Assembly (NCBI GenBank): GCA_019308525.1
Contig: JAFDIC010000224.1
Location: 1 to 8,826 of the forward strand
Length of the DNA: 8,826 nucleotides
DNA from: Deltaproteobacteria bacterium
Lineage (GTDB): Bacteria > Desulfobacterota > DSM-4660 > Desulfatiglandales > HGW-15
Direction of reading: 5' to 3'
Part shown: positions 3 to 8,826 of the stretch, piece after piece
Position numbering within the stretch: position 1 is the stretch's first letter
Layout: every line of letters begins with the position of its first letter
Program-made: the position numbers and the translations under genes
Notes under the pieces: generated by a model
What the model saw: only the letters and a program-made list of their open reading frames with translations
Database searches by the model: none
Told to the model about the DNA's origin: nothing

Positions 3-1319
3 TTAGAATCCGTATCTTATTGCGGAGTAGACACTGGAGTTGTCTTCAAATTGGCCGAAGAATGTCTGGTTTGACGATCCCAGAAACAAGTTCGCCCCGA
101 TCTCCGCCGTCCAATAGTCTGTGATCTTGTAGTTTACCTTGGGGCGGAGATAAGCATCAGAATCAGAGGGGCTGTAGAAGGTGAATAGGGACAGGGTGAG
201 GTTCTGGTTCATAAGGAGCTTTGTCAGGCGCAGAGTTACCACGTGGCGGTATTCACTGCGCACTGGCATGCCGGCAGGCAGAGAGAGGAGATAATCAGCA
301 TACTCGAGGAGTACCTCCAGGTAATATTGAAGGCCCACTGTGAAGTCGTGGGCTATCTGGGGCAGGTCCATCTCGTAACCGGTCAGAAAGCGAAACTCAG
401 AGTTTCTCTTGTAGGGATCATCCCCGGATGGATCCTCCCTGGAGTCGTAATACCCTATCTCGATGTTGGCTATTCCCTTGGCCAGGGGACCGCGAATGCT
501 CCCTCCATAGACGTTCAGCTTTGGAAAAAGGGCCTCGCCGGTGGCTGGGTCGAATCCCCCCGGGCTCTTCCAGAAGCCCTTGTAGCCGTACAAGCACAGC
601 TCGTAAGCCTCAATGTTCCTTGCTATTCTCAGTGCCAGTTCGTAGTCTTCGAACCAGGAATTAGGCAGATCAAGCTCTATGATGGCATCTCTTCCCGCGG
701 TTCTTCCGAGGGCAGCGTTGTAGTAAGAGAGCCGCTCACCAGAAACGAACCTGTCTGGATCAAACTTGGGTGTATAGACGATGTCGAGATTTGCAATCCG
801 GCTGAAGAGACTGGTTTTCAGTGCATCGGATGGTGCCTTTAGATATTCTACATCCCTGCCGATGAGAAATGCCTGCCAGTCCTTGGGGGAAAGATCATTG
901 ATGAATATGAGATCACCGGTGCCCCAGGTCAGGATCTGCCTGCCTGCCTTGAGGTCCATGAAAGCCAGAGGGGATAGGGATACATTTGCCTCACGCAGGT
1001 CCAGCCAGCCCTGACCGGATTCCAGGTCTATGTCGTGATCTTCAAGCACGAAATCATAAAGAAAATCCGCGGTGAGCTTGAAGATGGCTTCACCCAGTAC
1101 CGGCTCAATTCCTACCTGGAGACGGGTTTCGCCGAGGGATGCATCTTTCTCATATTGGTCATTCCCTGTACGCACACCACCGCGGGCCTCCCAGAAGCCC
1201 GAAGACCCCAGCTTCTCCATGCTCCTTTTGATTTTGCTCCCATCTGAGGGCTTTTTCTCTAGGGGAGTAACGGCGCCAGGTCGGGGCAAACCCTCCAGCC
1301 CCCCGGGGAGTTGCGGCTC
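3..1319 (-). CDS. Outer-membrane beta-barrel protein, barrel part (frame 2 of a frameshifted gene)
   Basis: This is the C-terminal, larger part of an outer-membrane barrel protein. It shows alternating hydrophobic/polar strands rich in aromatic residues and ends in R-Y-G-F before TAA; a terminal Phe is the usual recognition signal for the BAM assembly machinery. A stretch reading LKAGRQILTWGTGD followed by a D-W...GRDVEYLK region resembles the DUF1302/alginate-export-like barrels found beside RND and LolA-like genes. The only nearby start in this frame is a TTG at 1289, inside the linker, with no signal peptide, so it is not a credible native start. Upstream of it the frame reads E-P-Q-L-P-G-G-L-E-G, which continues the repeats of the 1627-1259 frame exactly. 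Adding one base near 1320 joins the two into a protein of about 541 residues. The barrel identification is firm at fold level; the substrate is unknown. Confidence 0.85.
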   Translation of the reverse strand, partial: EPQLPGGLEGLPRPGAVTPLEKKPSDGSKIKRSMEKLGSSGFWEARGGVRTGNDQYEKDASLGETRLQVGIEPVLGEAIFKLTADFLYDFVLEDHDIDLESGQGWLDLREANVSLSPLAFMDLKAGRQILTWGTGDLIFINDLSPKDWQAFLIGRDVEYLKAPSDALKTSLFSRIANLDIVYTPKFDPDRFVSGERLSYYNAALGRTAGRDAIIELDLPNSWFEDYELALRIARNIEAYELCLYGYKGFWKSPGGFDPATGEALFPKLNVYGGSIRGPLAKGIANIEIGYYDSREDPSGDDPYKRNSEFRFLTGYEMDLPQIAHDFTVGLQYYLEVLLEYADYLLSLPAGMPVRSEYRHVVTLRLTKLLMNQNLTLSLFTFYSPSDSDAYLRPKVNYKITDYWTAEIGANLFLGSSNQTFFGQFEDNSSVYSAIRYGF

Positions 1320-1627
1320 GCGCCGGGTCGGGGCAAACCCTCCAGCCCCCCGGGGAGGTGCGGCTCTTTTTCGGGCTCGATGTGACCGGGCGGTTGGGAC
1401 CCTCCCTGGAGGCCTGCCGGAAGCCCCGGTTCAGTTTGCTCTGGCTCCCTGGCCCCGGACAACCCTTGAGGCAAGGGCGGAGCCTGGTCTCCTGGAAGAG
1501 CAGAACCCAGGCCCCGGGGCAAGGGCGGAGGTTCCTGTGCATTGGCGCAGGAGCAGACAAGCAGGCCTCCGCAAAGCAGGAAAAATGAGATGGGAAACAG
1601 TATGAGGAAGAGAAACGTGATCTTCAT
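1259..1627 (-). CDS. Signal peptide and proline-rich linker of the barrel protein (frame 1 of a frameshifted gene)
   Basis: The first 30 residues are a Sec signal peptide: MK, a long hydrophobic run from T4 to V24, then C-S-C-A-N-A with probable signal peptidase I cleavage before Q31. LLVC does not fit a lipobox because Val, not Gly/Ala/Ser, precedes the Cys. Residues 31-103 are a proline-rich linker of about five degenerate repeats with core P-x-L-P-x-G-L. The frame then reads off-repeat and stops at 1259. The ATG overlaps the TGA of the upstream LolA-like gene (ATGA at 1627-1624). Upstream there is no good Shine-Dalgarno, so translation is probably coupled to that gene. As read this would be a secreted 122-residue stub. 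More likely it is the N-terminus of the barrel protein at 1319-3. Confidence 0.75.
   Translation of the reverse strand: MKITFLFLILFPISFFLLCGGLLVCSCANAQEPPPLPRGLGSALPGDQAPPLPQGLSGAREPEQTEPGLPAGLQGGSQPPGHIEPEKEPHLPGGLEGLPRPGASRNSPGGWRVCPDLAPLLP
1271..1537 (-). repeat. Degenerate proline-rich tandem repeat linker, nominal 48-bp unit, one unit 47 bp
   Basis: Five repeats of 16-22 residues, each with core P-x-L-P-x-G-L-x-G, lie between signal peptide and barrel. At DNA level, 1279-1319 and 1326-1366 match over 41 bases with a single mismatch, offset by 47 bp. Another pair, GGCAAGGGCGG at 1470 and 1518, is offset by exactly 48 bp (16 codons). The 47-bp spacing breaks the frame. Alignment of the copies places the missing base in the GGCGCC junction at about 1320. 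The C6G4 runs have equal length in both copies, so they are not where the base was lost. Confidence 0.9.
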
Positions 1628-5606: not shown

Positions 5607-6284
5607 TCAAGTAAAAAACATGGAAAGGAGTACCGCGAGTATGCCATTGAGGAATATGCCGTCAAATGTTCCCGCTCCTCCAATGGATGCCACGGGTGCC
5701 CCCAAGTCGCTGATCTTGTTGAGGTTAAGAAGATCAGCCCCTATCAGGGTCCCGAGGGTGCCGGAGATATAGGCGATCACAGGCGCATGATTGTAACCGA
5801 CAATGACAGCGATAAATGCCGCAAGGAGAGGGGGCAGGAAACCGGGCAGGGCAATCCCGAGGCCCGGTACAGGTCTTGCAAGCCTGTGGGTGACGATGGA
5901 CATCAGGGCGGTCGCGATGGCAGCCCTTCCCCACAGACCTGTTTTCATGACCAGGTAGAGGGAGAGCAGGGTGGGGATAATGGCCCCTCCCAGGTTCACG
6001 GCGAGGATGGTCTCCTTTCTTTTCCATACCGGGACGACGTACCTGAAGCCAAAGAAATCCACCCTTGTCTCAGTGGTCATGAGTTCCTGGGGGATCCTCC
6101 TGATGGGAATGTTAACGAAACTACCCACGAGGGTGGCAAAGAGGGCCGAGAACACGTATTGGGGCGGTATCCCTATTCTTGTGAAGGCGAGGGCAATGAG
6201 GTTGACTTGAACAATGACGAAAAAAAATACGATAGCAAAGAAGAAGAAGACTATGAAAACAAAAGTCAGCGGGTTAAAGAACAT
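5607..6284 (-). CDS. DUF1614 family integral membrane protein
   Basis: A 225-residue, very hydrophobic protein with about six membrane segments. The first is an unusually Phe-rich helix (residues 8-24). Family-type conserved blocks are visible: A-V-N-L-G-G-A-I-I-P (95-104), T-H-R-L-A-R-P-V-P-G-L-G-I (132-144), N-H-A-P-V-I-A-Y (165-172), and a long C-terminal block with G-A-D-L-L (182-186) and S-I-G-G-A-G-T-F-D-G-I-F-L (200-212). These match my knowledge of DUF1614, a family of unknown function. The conserved Gly, Asn, Asp and His residues within membrane segments would suit a transporter or membrane enzyme, but that is inference. The start is supported by GAGGAGG seven bases upstream of the ATG. 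It lies on the same strand as the exporter operon but 236 bp before it, with a promoter in between, so a functional link is uncertain. Confidence 0.85.
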   Translation of the reverse strand: MFFNPLTFVFIVFFFFAIVFFFVIVQVNLIALAFTRIGIPPQYVFSALFATLVGSFVNIPIRRIPQELMTTETRVDFFGFRYVVPVWKRKETILAVNLGGAIIPTLLSLYLVMKTGLWGRAAIATALMSIVTHRLARPVPGLGIALPGFLPPLLAAFIAVIVGYNHAPVIAYISGTLGTLIGADLLNLNKISDLGAPVASIGGAGTFDGIFLNGILAVLLSMFFT

Positions 6285-6602: not shown

Positions 6603-7358
6603 ATGGGGCTAAGAGGAAAGACCATGTCGGGATTCCTGATCCTTGTGACCATGTTGTTTCTTGCAGGCGTATGGTCGGTATACGAATTGAGGACAGTAGG
6701 AAGCGGGGTCCAAAGGCTTCTGGACGAAAACTACAAGAGCATCCAGGCCGCAAGAAGGATGATCGAGGCGCTCGAAAGGCAAGACAGCGGAGTACTCGTC
6801 CTGTTGCTCGGTGACAGGAAAGAGGGGAGGGCTATTATCAACCGGGCAGACGCGCTGTTTAGAGATGCCCTGGAGGTCGCCGGGGGCAATATAACGATCC
6901 GGGGAGAATCCTCCTATGTGAACGAGATAAGATCCAAGTACGAAGCCTACAAGACACTGTGGTCAAGGTCCATAGCCGGCACAAGGCTTGAGAGAGATAT
7001 CGATTGGTATTTCAAGGAGGTTCATGCAGCGTTCCTCGAGGTTAAGAAATCCGTACAGAAACTGATGGCCATGAATGACAGCGTCATGTATGACACGGCT
7101 TCCAATTTGAAAAACAGGTCGCACAGGGCTGTGATGCCGGGGGTCATAGCAATCCTGTCAGCCCTCGTTTTTTCGCTTGTCTTCAACTATTTCGTGAACT
7201 ATTACACCGTGAATCCTATTATCAGGATGTCTAAGGGAATCAAGGAATTCATATCCAATAGGACGCCCTTTGATATCAAGATCGAATCAGAGGACGAACT
7301 CAGGGACTTGGCAAACTCCATCAAGGAGTTGTCTTCCATGGTAGGAGCAAGGGACTAA
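6603..7358 (+). CDS. Membrane sensor protein with HAMP domain and no output domain
   Basis: A 251-residue protein laid out like the front half of a KinB/NtrY-like sensor kinase. TM1 is at about 9-27 after M-G-L-R-G-K-T. A periplasmic helical domain spans about 28-176 and includes E-N-Y-K-S-I-Q-A-A and M-I-E-A-L-E-R-Q-D-S-G (53-63), motifs typical of KinB-type four-helix sensors. TM2 is at about 178-199. A HAMP domain spans about 200-246, with Pro205 in V-N-P-I and the second-helix signature E-D-E-L-R-D-L-A-N-S-I. The protein stops at residue 251, exactly where a DHp or methyl-accepting helix would normally begin, so it has no kinase, cyclase or chemotaxis output. trkH starts one base after its TAA, so the two are surely co-transcribed. 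I infer that the HAMP helices may act directly on TrkH or on an unlinked partner; a decayed kinase is the alternative. Confidence 0.85.
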   Translation: MGLRGKTMSGFLILVTMLFLAGVWSVYELRTVGSGVQRLLDENYKSIQAARRMIEALERQDSGVLVLLLGDRKEGRAIINRADALFRDALEVAGGNITIRGESSYVNEIRSKYEAYKTLWSRSIAGTRLERDIDWYFKEVHAAFLEVKKSVQKLMAMNDSVMYDTASNLKNRSHRAVMPGVIAILSALVFSLVFNYFVNYYTVNPIIRMSKGIKEFISNRTPFDIKIESEDELRDLANSIKELSSMVGARD

Positions 7359-7359
7359 G

Positions 7360-8706
7360 ATGAGGCTCCACATAATTCTCAGGTACAACGGCTTTGTATT
7401 GCTCTTGAACGCTGCCTTTTTGCTGCTTTCCGCTCTGGTCTCCTTGATCTACCGGGACGGTGCCTCGTACCTGCTTTTTTACAGCTCGATTATCACGATC
7501 CTTTTCGGACTTTTCCTGATGGTTTTCGTCCCGGCCTCCACTGATATCAGCAACAAAGAGGGTTTCATGATCGTGGTGAGCAGTTGGCTGCTCTCGTGTC
7601 TCGTGGGTATCCTTCCATATGTCTTGTGGGGAGGTGAGTTCACTCTCAGCAATGCATGGTTTGAGAGCGTCTCGGGATACACTACCACTGGGTCATCCAT
7701 ATTGAACAATATCGAGTCCCTCCCGAAGGGACTGTTGTTCTGGAGATCTTCCACCCATTGGATTGGAGGAATAGGGATCCTGATTTTTGTGCTATCGGTC
7801 TCCCCTTCCATGGGAAGGGCTGGAATGATACTTTACAGAACCGAGATGTCTGCACTGGCAGCAGAAAACTTCCATTACAGGACAAGGCAGACCCTGAAAG
7901 TCCTGCTCTACATATACGTCGGCTTTTCAACAAAGAACTTGAGCATTGCCCATTACGGGAGCCTCGGGGTGGAGATGGTAGTAATGCTCTTCATGGTACT
8001 GTCCGGGATCCACTTCGGGCTCTTGTTTGGGGCGATCACGGGAAAGATTGCGGACCTGTGGCATTCGCCGGTCGTCAAGTACTATGTTTTATCGATGCTG
8101 GCTGGTATCGCCGCGATAAGCCTGTATCTGTACTGGATTGAAGGCCAAGGCCTTGGCGAGTCCTTGCGCTACTCCGCATTCCAGGCCATATCCCTTGGTA
8201 CTTCCACCGGGTTCTCGACCACTGATACCTCCCAATGGCCTCCGTTCACACAATTGATTCTCATCTTTTTTACCCTTCAATGCGCATGTGCTGGTTCCAC
8301 TTCGGGCGGCATAAAGGTTGATAGGGTTGTCATACTGTGGAAGGCGATTGCAAAGAGGGTAAAAAAAATTCAACATCCGAGTGGGATCATAAGGGTGAAG
8401 GTCAACGGGATCACCATGGAGGAGGAGGTCCTGGAAATGAATGTGCTTTACATATCTCTATACTTGGGAATTGTGTTCCTGGCCGCTCTCATCCTGACGG
8501 CCCTTGGCCTGGATATCCTCTCTTCCTTTTCAGGCGCGGCAGCCACCATGGGCAACGTGGGGCCCGGGTTCGGGCTGGTGGGCTCCATGAGCAACTACAG
8601 CCATATCCCTGAGGTCGGCAAGTGGGTCTTGAGTGCCACTATGTTACTGGGTCGCCTTGAGGTCTACGGCCTGGTCCTGTTCTTCATGGCCAGGTGGTGG
8701 AGGTAG
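7360..8706 (+). CDS. trkH: TrkH family potassium uptake protein with the second pore loop deleted
   Basis: A 448-residue inner-membrane ion-channel subunit; family members are usually about 480 residues. Of the four M1-P-M2 units, three pore loops are present: P1 at 101-113 (S-G-Y-T-T-T-G-S-S), P3 at 277-289 (S-L-G-T-S-T-G-F-S-T-T-D), and P4 at 393-405 (G-N-V-G-P-G-F-G). A-G-S-T-S-G-G-I-K-V (311-320) and the final L-L-G-R-L-E block are also intact. At residues 183-191 the protein runs from L-Y-I-Y-V-G straight into F-S-T-K-N. Relatives have about 30-35 more residues here: the rest of an M1 helix, the second pore helix and the T-G-G part of the filter. The deletion is in frame and falls at GGC 7921-7923. 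TrkH normally needs a TrkA regulatory ring; no trkA is in the window. The start is one base after the HAMP gene stop and probably relies on translational coupling. Confidence 0.93.
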   Translation: MRLHIILRYNGFVLLLNAAFLLLSALVSLIYRDGASYLLFYSSIITILFGLFLMVFVPASTDISNKEGFMIVVSSWLLSCLVGILPYVLWGGEFTLSNAWFESVSGYTTTGSSILNNIESLPKGLLFWRSSTHWIGGIGILIFVLSVSPSMGRAGMILYRTEMSALAAENFHYRTRQTLKVLLYIYVGFSTKNLSIAHYGSLGVEMVVMLFMVLSGIHFGLLFGAITGKIADLWHSPVVKYYVLSMLAGIAAISLYLYWIEGQGLGESLRYSAFQAISLGTSTGFSTTDTSQWPPFTQLILIFFTLQCACAGSTSGGIKVDRVVILWKAIAKRVKKIQHPSGIIRVKVNGITMEEEVLEMNVLYISLYLGIVFLAALILTALGLDILSSFSGAAATMGNVGPGFGLVGSMSNYSHIPEVGKWVLSATMLLGRLEVYGLVLFFMARWWR

Positions 8707-8720
8707 GAAGAGATTCCTGA

Positions 8721-8826
8721 TCACGTGGCCAATGCCTTCTGTCTTTCTTCCTTTTCCTCCTGGCAGGCGCGGCACCGTAAAGCATAGGGCATCACCTTCA
8801 ACCTCGCAGGGGTTATCCATTTGCCG
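8721..8826 (-). CDS. DksA/TraR-type zinc-finger protein, C-terminal fragment
   Basis: Only the last 34 residues lie in the window; the gene continues past the right edge. They read G-K-W-I-T-P-A-R-L-K-V-M-P-Y-A-L-R-C-R-A-C-Q-E-E, then a charged tail ending K-A-L-A-T before TGA at 8723-8721. The I-x-x-A-R-L-K-x-x-P-Y-A-x-x-C-x-x-C pattern is the second half of the four-cysteine zinc finger of DksA/TraR family regulators; the first Cys pair would lie outside. Such proteins bind the RNA polymerase secondary channel or act as small transcription regulators. The gene is convergent with trkH, with only 14 bases between the two stop codons, and no clear terminator is visible between them. Confidence 0.75.
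   Translation of the reverse strand, partial: GKWITPARLKVMPYALRCRACQEEKEERQKALAT

Follow-up and report, generated by a model that had tools for sequence, protein, structure and literature searches.

A TrkH homologue lacking part of its second pore repeat, encoded next to a HAMP-type sensor gene

The short trkH gene and its missing segment

The stretch of DNA analysed here (the window) comprises 8,826 nucleotides of a Deltaproteobacteria bacterium (assembly GCA_019308525.1, contig JAFDIC010000224.1) and carries a gene encoding a short homologue of the potassium (K+) channel protein TrkH, located directly downstream of a gene for a protein with a four-helix-bundle sensor and a HAMP-like region (Table 1). 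The trkH product was assigned by Pfam to PF02386 with 163.3 bits against a gathering cut-off of 27, and it is homologous over its whole length to the TrkH/KtrB/TrkG superfamily, of which the Vibrio parahaemolyticus TrkH (VpTrkH) structures (PDB 3pjz, 4j9u, and 6v4j-l) were its best structural matches. An earlier sequence-only reading of this DNA had proposed that the protein, at 448 residues, is short and has lost its second pore loop, and alignment with homologues of about 479 residues bore this out. Exactly 31 codons (93 nt) are gone in frame relative to the relatives, where 30 to 35 had been estimated, and the multiple alignment places them in one clean gap of 31 residues, as expected if the second half of M1 and P2 had been lost in a single step. 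At this site, the ORF (open reading frame) translation reads YVGFSTKN (residues 182-193 being LLYIYVGFSTKN), whereas the closest homologue, P0002 (76% identical, 479 aa), reads YVGL...TIATGGFSTKN. The segment missing from the second repeat (D2) thus comprises the second half of M1, the whole pore helix P2, and the T-I-A-T-G of filter 2.

Table 1. Coordinates in the window of the short trkH gene, its landmarks, and the upstream partner gene.
Feature	Position	Strand	Basis
Upstream partner gene, 251 aa, four-helix-bundle sensor and HAMP-like region	6603..7358	+	Profile scans, alignment; stop codon 1 nt before the trkH ATG
trkH homologue, short form, 448 aa (relatives about 479 aa)	7360..8706	+	ORF translation, Pfam, homologue alignment
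Filter 1, T-T-T-G-S, residues 108-112, intact	7681..7695	+	Alignment
D2 M1 remnant, residues 178-187, about half a transmembrane helix	7891..7920	+	Alignment, hydropathy
Deletion junction 7920/7921, codon 187 GTC (7918-7920) / codon 188 GGC (7921-7923)	7918..7923	+	Alignments with relatives, which keep 31 codons here
G-F-S-T following filter 2; G188 aligns with VpTrkH G222	7921..7932	+	Alignment to V. parahaemolyticus TrkH
Filter 3, T-S-T-G-F-S, residues 281-286, intact	8200..8217	+	Alignment
Filter 4, G-N-V-G-P-G, residues 398-403, intact	8551..8568	+	Alignment

Proteins of the TrkH family have four M1-P-M2 repeats with one filter in each. In contrast, the window protein has fewer than four complete repeats, as D2 is without half of M1 and all of P2, and of its second filter there remains a single glycine, G188, directly before F-S-T, which may derive from either the left or the right edge of the deletion. 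The claim that the second filter was lost therefore stands for T-I-A-T-G but not for this last letter, and "filter 2 missing" is to be read as the loss of the pore helix and the carbonyl strand rather than of every filter residue. The glycine with which G188 aligns, G222, serves as a filter marker for VpTrkH in the accessible part of PMC6987127, and the same part of that source describes a different TrkH deletion, engineered in the D3 intramembrane loop, that yields a constitutively open channel. Both observations would suit a pore of altered selectivity, in which the three remaining filters and G188 still pass cations. However, the pore helix and the carbonyl strand that should precede G188 are absent, the structure model has no P2 helix, and filter glycines are reported as essential in KtrB in the accessible part of that literature; only a very slim chance is given to such a pore.

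Hydropathy and profile comparisons also mark the junction. No 19-residue window above 1.6 starts in the M1 remnant, whereas the intact P0002 has such starts at 179-184 and 187. With HMMER, the short TrkH aligns both to NCBIfam models and to the V. parahaemolyticus protein in two pieces that separate at residue 187-190, whereas P0002 matches the same NCBIfam models in one stretch. Pfam breaks the window protein at 188, yet it breaks P0002 into two as well, so the Pfam split alone is not diagnostic of the deletion. Likewise, the score of 228.1 bits against NCBIfam TIGR00933 lies below the cut-off of 331.15, but the four intact relatives tested (270.8-287.6) fall short too, so the deficit reflects divergence of the subfamily as well as the deletion. 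The AlphaFold2 models of the short protein and of an intact control differ only in the stretch after residues 149-173 and in the missing P2. Low confidence at 149-173 was considered as an effect of the deletion and rejected, as the intact control shows it too.

Rarity of the short form and conservation of its remainder

The set of 121 aligned homologues consisted of the window protein, 119 other listed homologues, and one from a search with the junction region, and the window TrkH alone among them has an internal gap of at least 8 columns. All 80 related loci (kept out of 149, and found through TrkH patterns of this subfamily) retain the segment, the largest gap relative to the window protein being 31 residues in 78 of them, 32 in one, and 21 in one. 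T217, G218, and G219 of filter 2 are invariant in 93 of 93 relatives (alignment A3). The same short form, which the sequence-only reading had proposed to seek in close relatives, thus occurs in none of the other aligned homologues or related loci. A protein search with residues 166-212, of limited reach, returned five candidates and found the junction only in the window itself; the four others (479, 457, 479, and 479 aa) have no gap in D2. TrkH matches were obtained in 207 of 395 sampled genomes, and among the matches listed, each either begins within query residues 185-190 or stops at residue 191, and none extends more than 4 residues beyond the junction. In the open-access literature surveyed (titles and the beginnings of abstracts), no three-filter TrkH is described.

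At 90% identity the short TrkH clusters with no other copy, being one sequence on one contig. Such a singleton, on a contig as short as the window, could result from assembly or strain mixture, the assembler having skipped 93 nt of a gene that is in truth full length. This explanation is considered unlikely. The 15-, 21-, and 31-mers spanning the junction are each unique within the window, and runs of just 2-4 nt are common to both ends of the segment in the 10 relatives examined, with no misleading repeat visible, which argues against a repeat collapse. The parts of the protein before and after the junction (86.1% and 77.0% identity, respectively) share P0002 as their nearest relative, making a join of two lineages unlikely, and the loss is exactly in frame, an outcome expected one time in three by chance. 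The short runs shared by the ends are matched by 14-47% of codon positions in eight of these relatives and by about 4% in the other two, L002 and L004 (4 nt); the proposal that a GGC-TTT microhomology drove the deletion thus finds little support in the DNA of these 10 relatives.

The other signature blocks are intact, in agreement with the earlier reading. The short TrkH departs at none of the 69 columns on which all other homologues agree and at 6 of the 164 columns conserved in at least 95%, where relatives reach up to 8 departures. Relative-rate counts against P0002 with six outgroups revealed no acceleration (largest chi-square 2.12), and the HAMP partner, whose gene is open, also evolves at a normal rate relative to its own sister P0123 with ten outgroups. 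The GC content at third codon positions is uniform across the gene (0.652 before the junction and 0.690 after). Departures from the consensus, all in small numbers, were counted by segment for the window protein and P0002, respectively: 9 and 3 in D0, 6 and 2 in D1, 4 and 8 in the rest of D2, 6 and 6 in D3, and 8 and 11 in D4. Relaxed selection on the rest of the gene was not seen in the conservation or relative-rate counts. Either the deletion would be recent or the remainder would still be constrained, and these data do not separate the two; a recent deletion is favored because of the rarity of the short form and the structural argument.

The HAMP partner gene and its pairing with TrkH

The best start of the upstream partner gene is the ATG at 6603. 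Its product scored 16.8 bits against HAMP PF00672 (gathering cut-off 25) and 26.8 against 4HB_MCP_1 PF12729 (cut-off 27), a value exceeded by relatives in L002 (33.4), L023 (27.8), and L046 (31.7), whereas those in L001, L005, L010, and L011 remained below the cut-off. P205 and the pair D231-E232 are invariant in 22 of 22 aligned partner proteins, and we take them to be the proline and the D-E pair typical of HAMP. HAMP domains pass signals on to kinases, cyclases, and the tips of chemoreceptors. In the 251-residue partner, domain scans found no output domain. Its profile matches the first approximately 250 residues of histidine kinases with HAMP input, such as that of L099 (HAMP-HisKA-HATPase), the only one of the long matches that was domain-scanned; unlike L099, the window protein stops after HAMP, has no kinase, and is followed by trkH.

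The two genes (6603-8706) form a HAMP-TrkH unit, defined as a trkH gene immediately preceded by a stand-alone gene for a four-helix bundle plus HAMP. Comparisons with the 80 related loci, whose pairing frequency applies to this subfamily only, showed that in 72 of them, from at least two phyla, a partner homologue immediately precedes the gene for this type of TrkH, and in 65 of these 72 the partner overlaps the start of the tblastn TrkH match or lies within 16 nt of it. Pairs were also noted in L096-L098 and L126-L128. The seven loci without a HAMP gene (L055, L058, L059, L060, L073, L074, and L080) are all labelled as Bacteroidales, and the remaining one, L042, has too little upstream DNA to show a partner. 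TrkH and partner homologues moreover recur on equally long contigs (3866, 10612, 4810, 3649, 5305, 3160, and others), in agreement with the pairing; P0002 and the HAMP homologue P0123 are such a case. The HAMP-linked relatives P0002 (76%), L001 (59%), and L023 (43%) keep the segment and measure about 479-481 aa, and the operon layout of L001 and L023 is that of the window. A TrkA-like ORF was seen in none of the 80 loci (within up to 4 kb on either side) and among none of the window genes, whereas the same TrkA query (from L082) found TrkA in three of four control stretches (L081, L084, and L085, but not L083, a short contig).

The association was also examined in reverse. In the phylum of G013 (Bacteroidales), 118 genomes were sampled around G013, which was known beforehand, and the partner profile matched in 29 of them. 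Three of these (G013, G439, and G459) have stand-alone genes with very strong scores, each followed by this TrkH type, and in the other 26 the matches lie in frames of 590-713 aa; the one that was domain-scanned (L099) is a histidine kinase. The 390 genomes sampled from the phylum of G001 gave three strong stand-alone matches, in G001 (the sample center), G062, and G198, and these three also hold the only TrkH matches of at least 58% identity among the matches listed. TrkH follows the partner in all three, in G198 with just its first 83 residues. In G127, the partner profile also matched a 231-aa frame that lies at the end of a contig; this match had a weak score (9.1e-33) and was not counted as stand-alone. 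Thus, on small numbers, the association between this TrkH subfamily and the stand-alone HAMP gene holds whichever of the two a search starts from. The HAMP-linked TrkH of G198 is split: contig C37 (L128) carries residues 1-83, which end 345 nt short of the contig end, and C23 (L088) carries the part from residue 82 on, starting at base 323. The split may stem from a break between contigs or from an insertion into the gene.

The pairing bears on the suggestion that the short TrkH has been repurposed, together with the HAMP protein, as a non-conducting sensor or regulator with three filters. The adjacency to a sensor-type gene, the preserved frame without departures at invariant columns, and the open HAMP gene evolving at a normal rate would all agree with such a role. 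However, no second short form was found among the 121 homologues, the 80 loci, and the five junction candidates, nor among the matches listed in the 395 genomes, and hydropathy indicates the loss of one transmembrane crossing. Furthermore, as the partner adjoins segment-bearing channels in 72 of 80 loci, it neither requires the short form nor explains the loss. Repurposing of this kind is therefore very improbable.

The genomes related to the window usually encode further Trk components. Nine of the genomes G001-G010 hold at least two TrkH matches, and a TrkA_C match adjoins the strongest TrkH match in eight of the 10 (G001, G002, G003, G004, G006, G007, G008, and G009); a TrkA ORF lies directly upstream of the strongest TrkH in four of five fetched stretches. 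The idea that TrkA is absent from these genomes was rejected, with TrkA_C matches in 14 of 14 related genomes. G005, G011, G013, and G014 each contain an unlinked frame of 453-506 aa bearing two TrkA_C matches, so an unlinked TrkA may still serve the HAMP-linked TrkH.

Further genes and open frames were noted in the rest of the window. The minus strand between 3 and 5460 encodes a DUF1302-like protein (below cut-off), a protein resembling outer-membrane lipoprotein-sorting proteins (PF17131), and an MMPL/RND-type transporter, and this cluster looks like an envelope export unit. A short ORF at 1259-1627 (minus strand) has a signal-like start and a repetitive tail rich in Pro, Gly, and Leu, with open frames on the other strand too. 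At 5607-6284, also on the minus strand, a DUF1614 membrane protein (205 bits) is encoded divergently from the HAMP-trkH pair. The frame just after trkH (8707-8826, minus strand) reads PYALRCRACQEEKEE, which we take to be reminiscent of the zinc-finger end of DksA/TraR proteins, and it is a possible convergent neighbor of trkH.

Interpretation of the deletion and of the gene pair

By the membership rules of the family, the short TrkH is a defective TrkH descendant and not a working member. It probably represents a recent in-frame loss-of-function deletion in one genome that abolished K+ conduction; the non-conducting state proposed earlier is the best reading, while the accompanying idea of a sensor role is unsupported. 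Normally, a signal from the periplasm would be passed on through the membrane by the HAMP protein, reaching TrkH on its cytoplasmic side. Without half of D2-M1, the pore helix P2, and the filter 2 carbonyl strand, the protomer would be unable to form a selective K+ pore, being one filter strand and one transmembrane crossing short, and its C-terminal half would be expected to misfold or to insert awkwardly. A null HAMP-linked TrkH could be tolerated because a TrkA-linked TrkH is usually present as well, as in eight of the 10 closer genomes.

Several observations weigh against a loss of function. The intact frame and the conserved other blocks also fit a protein under selection, a recent loss and continued constraint look alike in the rate tests, and chance alone would leave one deletion in three in frame. 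The model of the short protein keeps the overall TrkH fold, with a TM-score of 0.85 (query-normalised) to 4j9u; AlphaFold2 is, on the other hand, insensitive to disruptive deletions. The channel engineered without its D3 loop stays open, indicating that not every deletion in the pore domain kills the channel. Finally, a second Trk system in the source organism is presumed from its relatives, and in four of the 14 genomes searched (G005, G011, G013, and G014), no TrkH gene other than the HAMP-linked one was matched.

Among described systems, the NtrYX/PlrSR-trkAH clusters (PMC13001219) likewise encode a HAMP-containing sensor near a Trk system; in the accessible part of that source, they comprise a full kinase and a response regulator before trkA and trkH, whereas in the window a kinase-less HAMP protein precedes trkH alone. 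No HAMP-TrkH pair is described in the surveyed open-access titles and abstract beginnings. Gene order and co-occurrence suggest that the HAMP protein may gate TrkH directly. We tentatively propose, as a possibility, an undescribed sensor-channel system in which a kinase-less input protein resembling that of histidine kinases (a periplasmic four-helix bundle plus HAMP) would have as its dedicated output the TrkH-type K+ channel whose gene comes next, so that an extracellular signal would gate K+ flux directly. The HAMP dimer could then sit on the cytoplasmic face of the TrkH dimer, replacing the TrkA ring or standing beside it, and the short TrkH of the window would be a natural knock-out of the channel half.

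The deletion amounts to a natural experiment on whether TrkH can do without one filter of the four, and its occurrence as a singleton suggests that such a loss cannot last long. The conserved HAMP-TrkH pairing is a larger point than the deletion itself. For HAMP, a K+ channel encoded in the operon of a HAMP-only receptor, in two or more phyla, would constitute a novel type of output. If true, the pairing would also represent a novel mode of gating for Trk channels, whose control is otherwise explained by the nucleotide-sensing TrkA.
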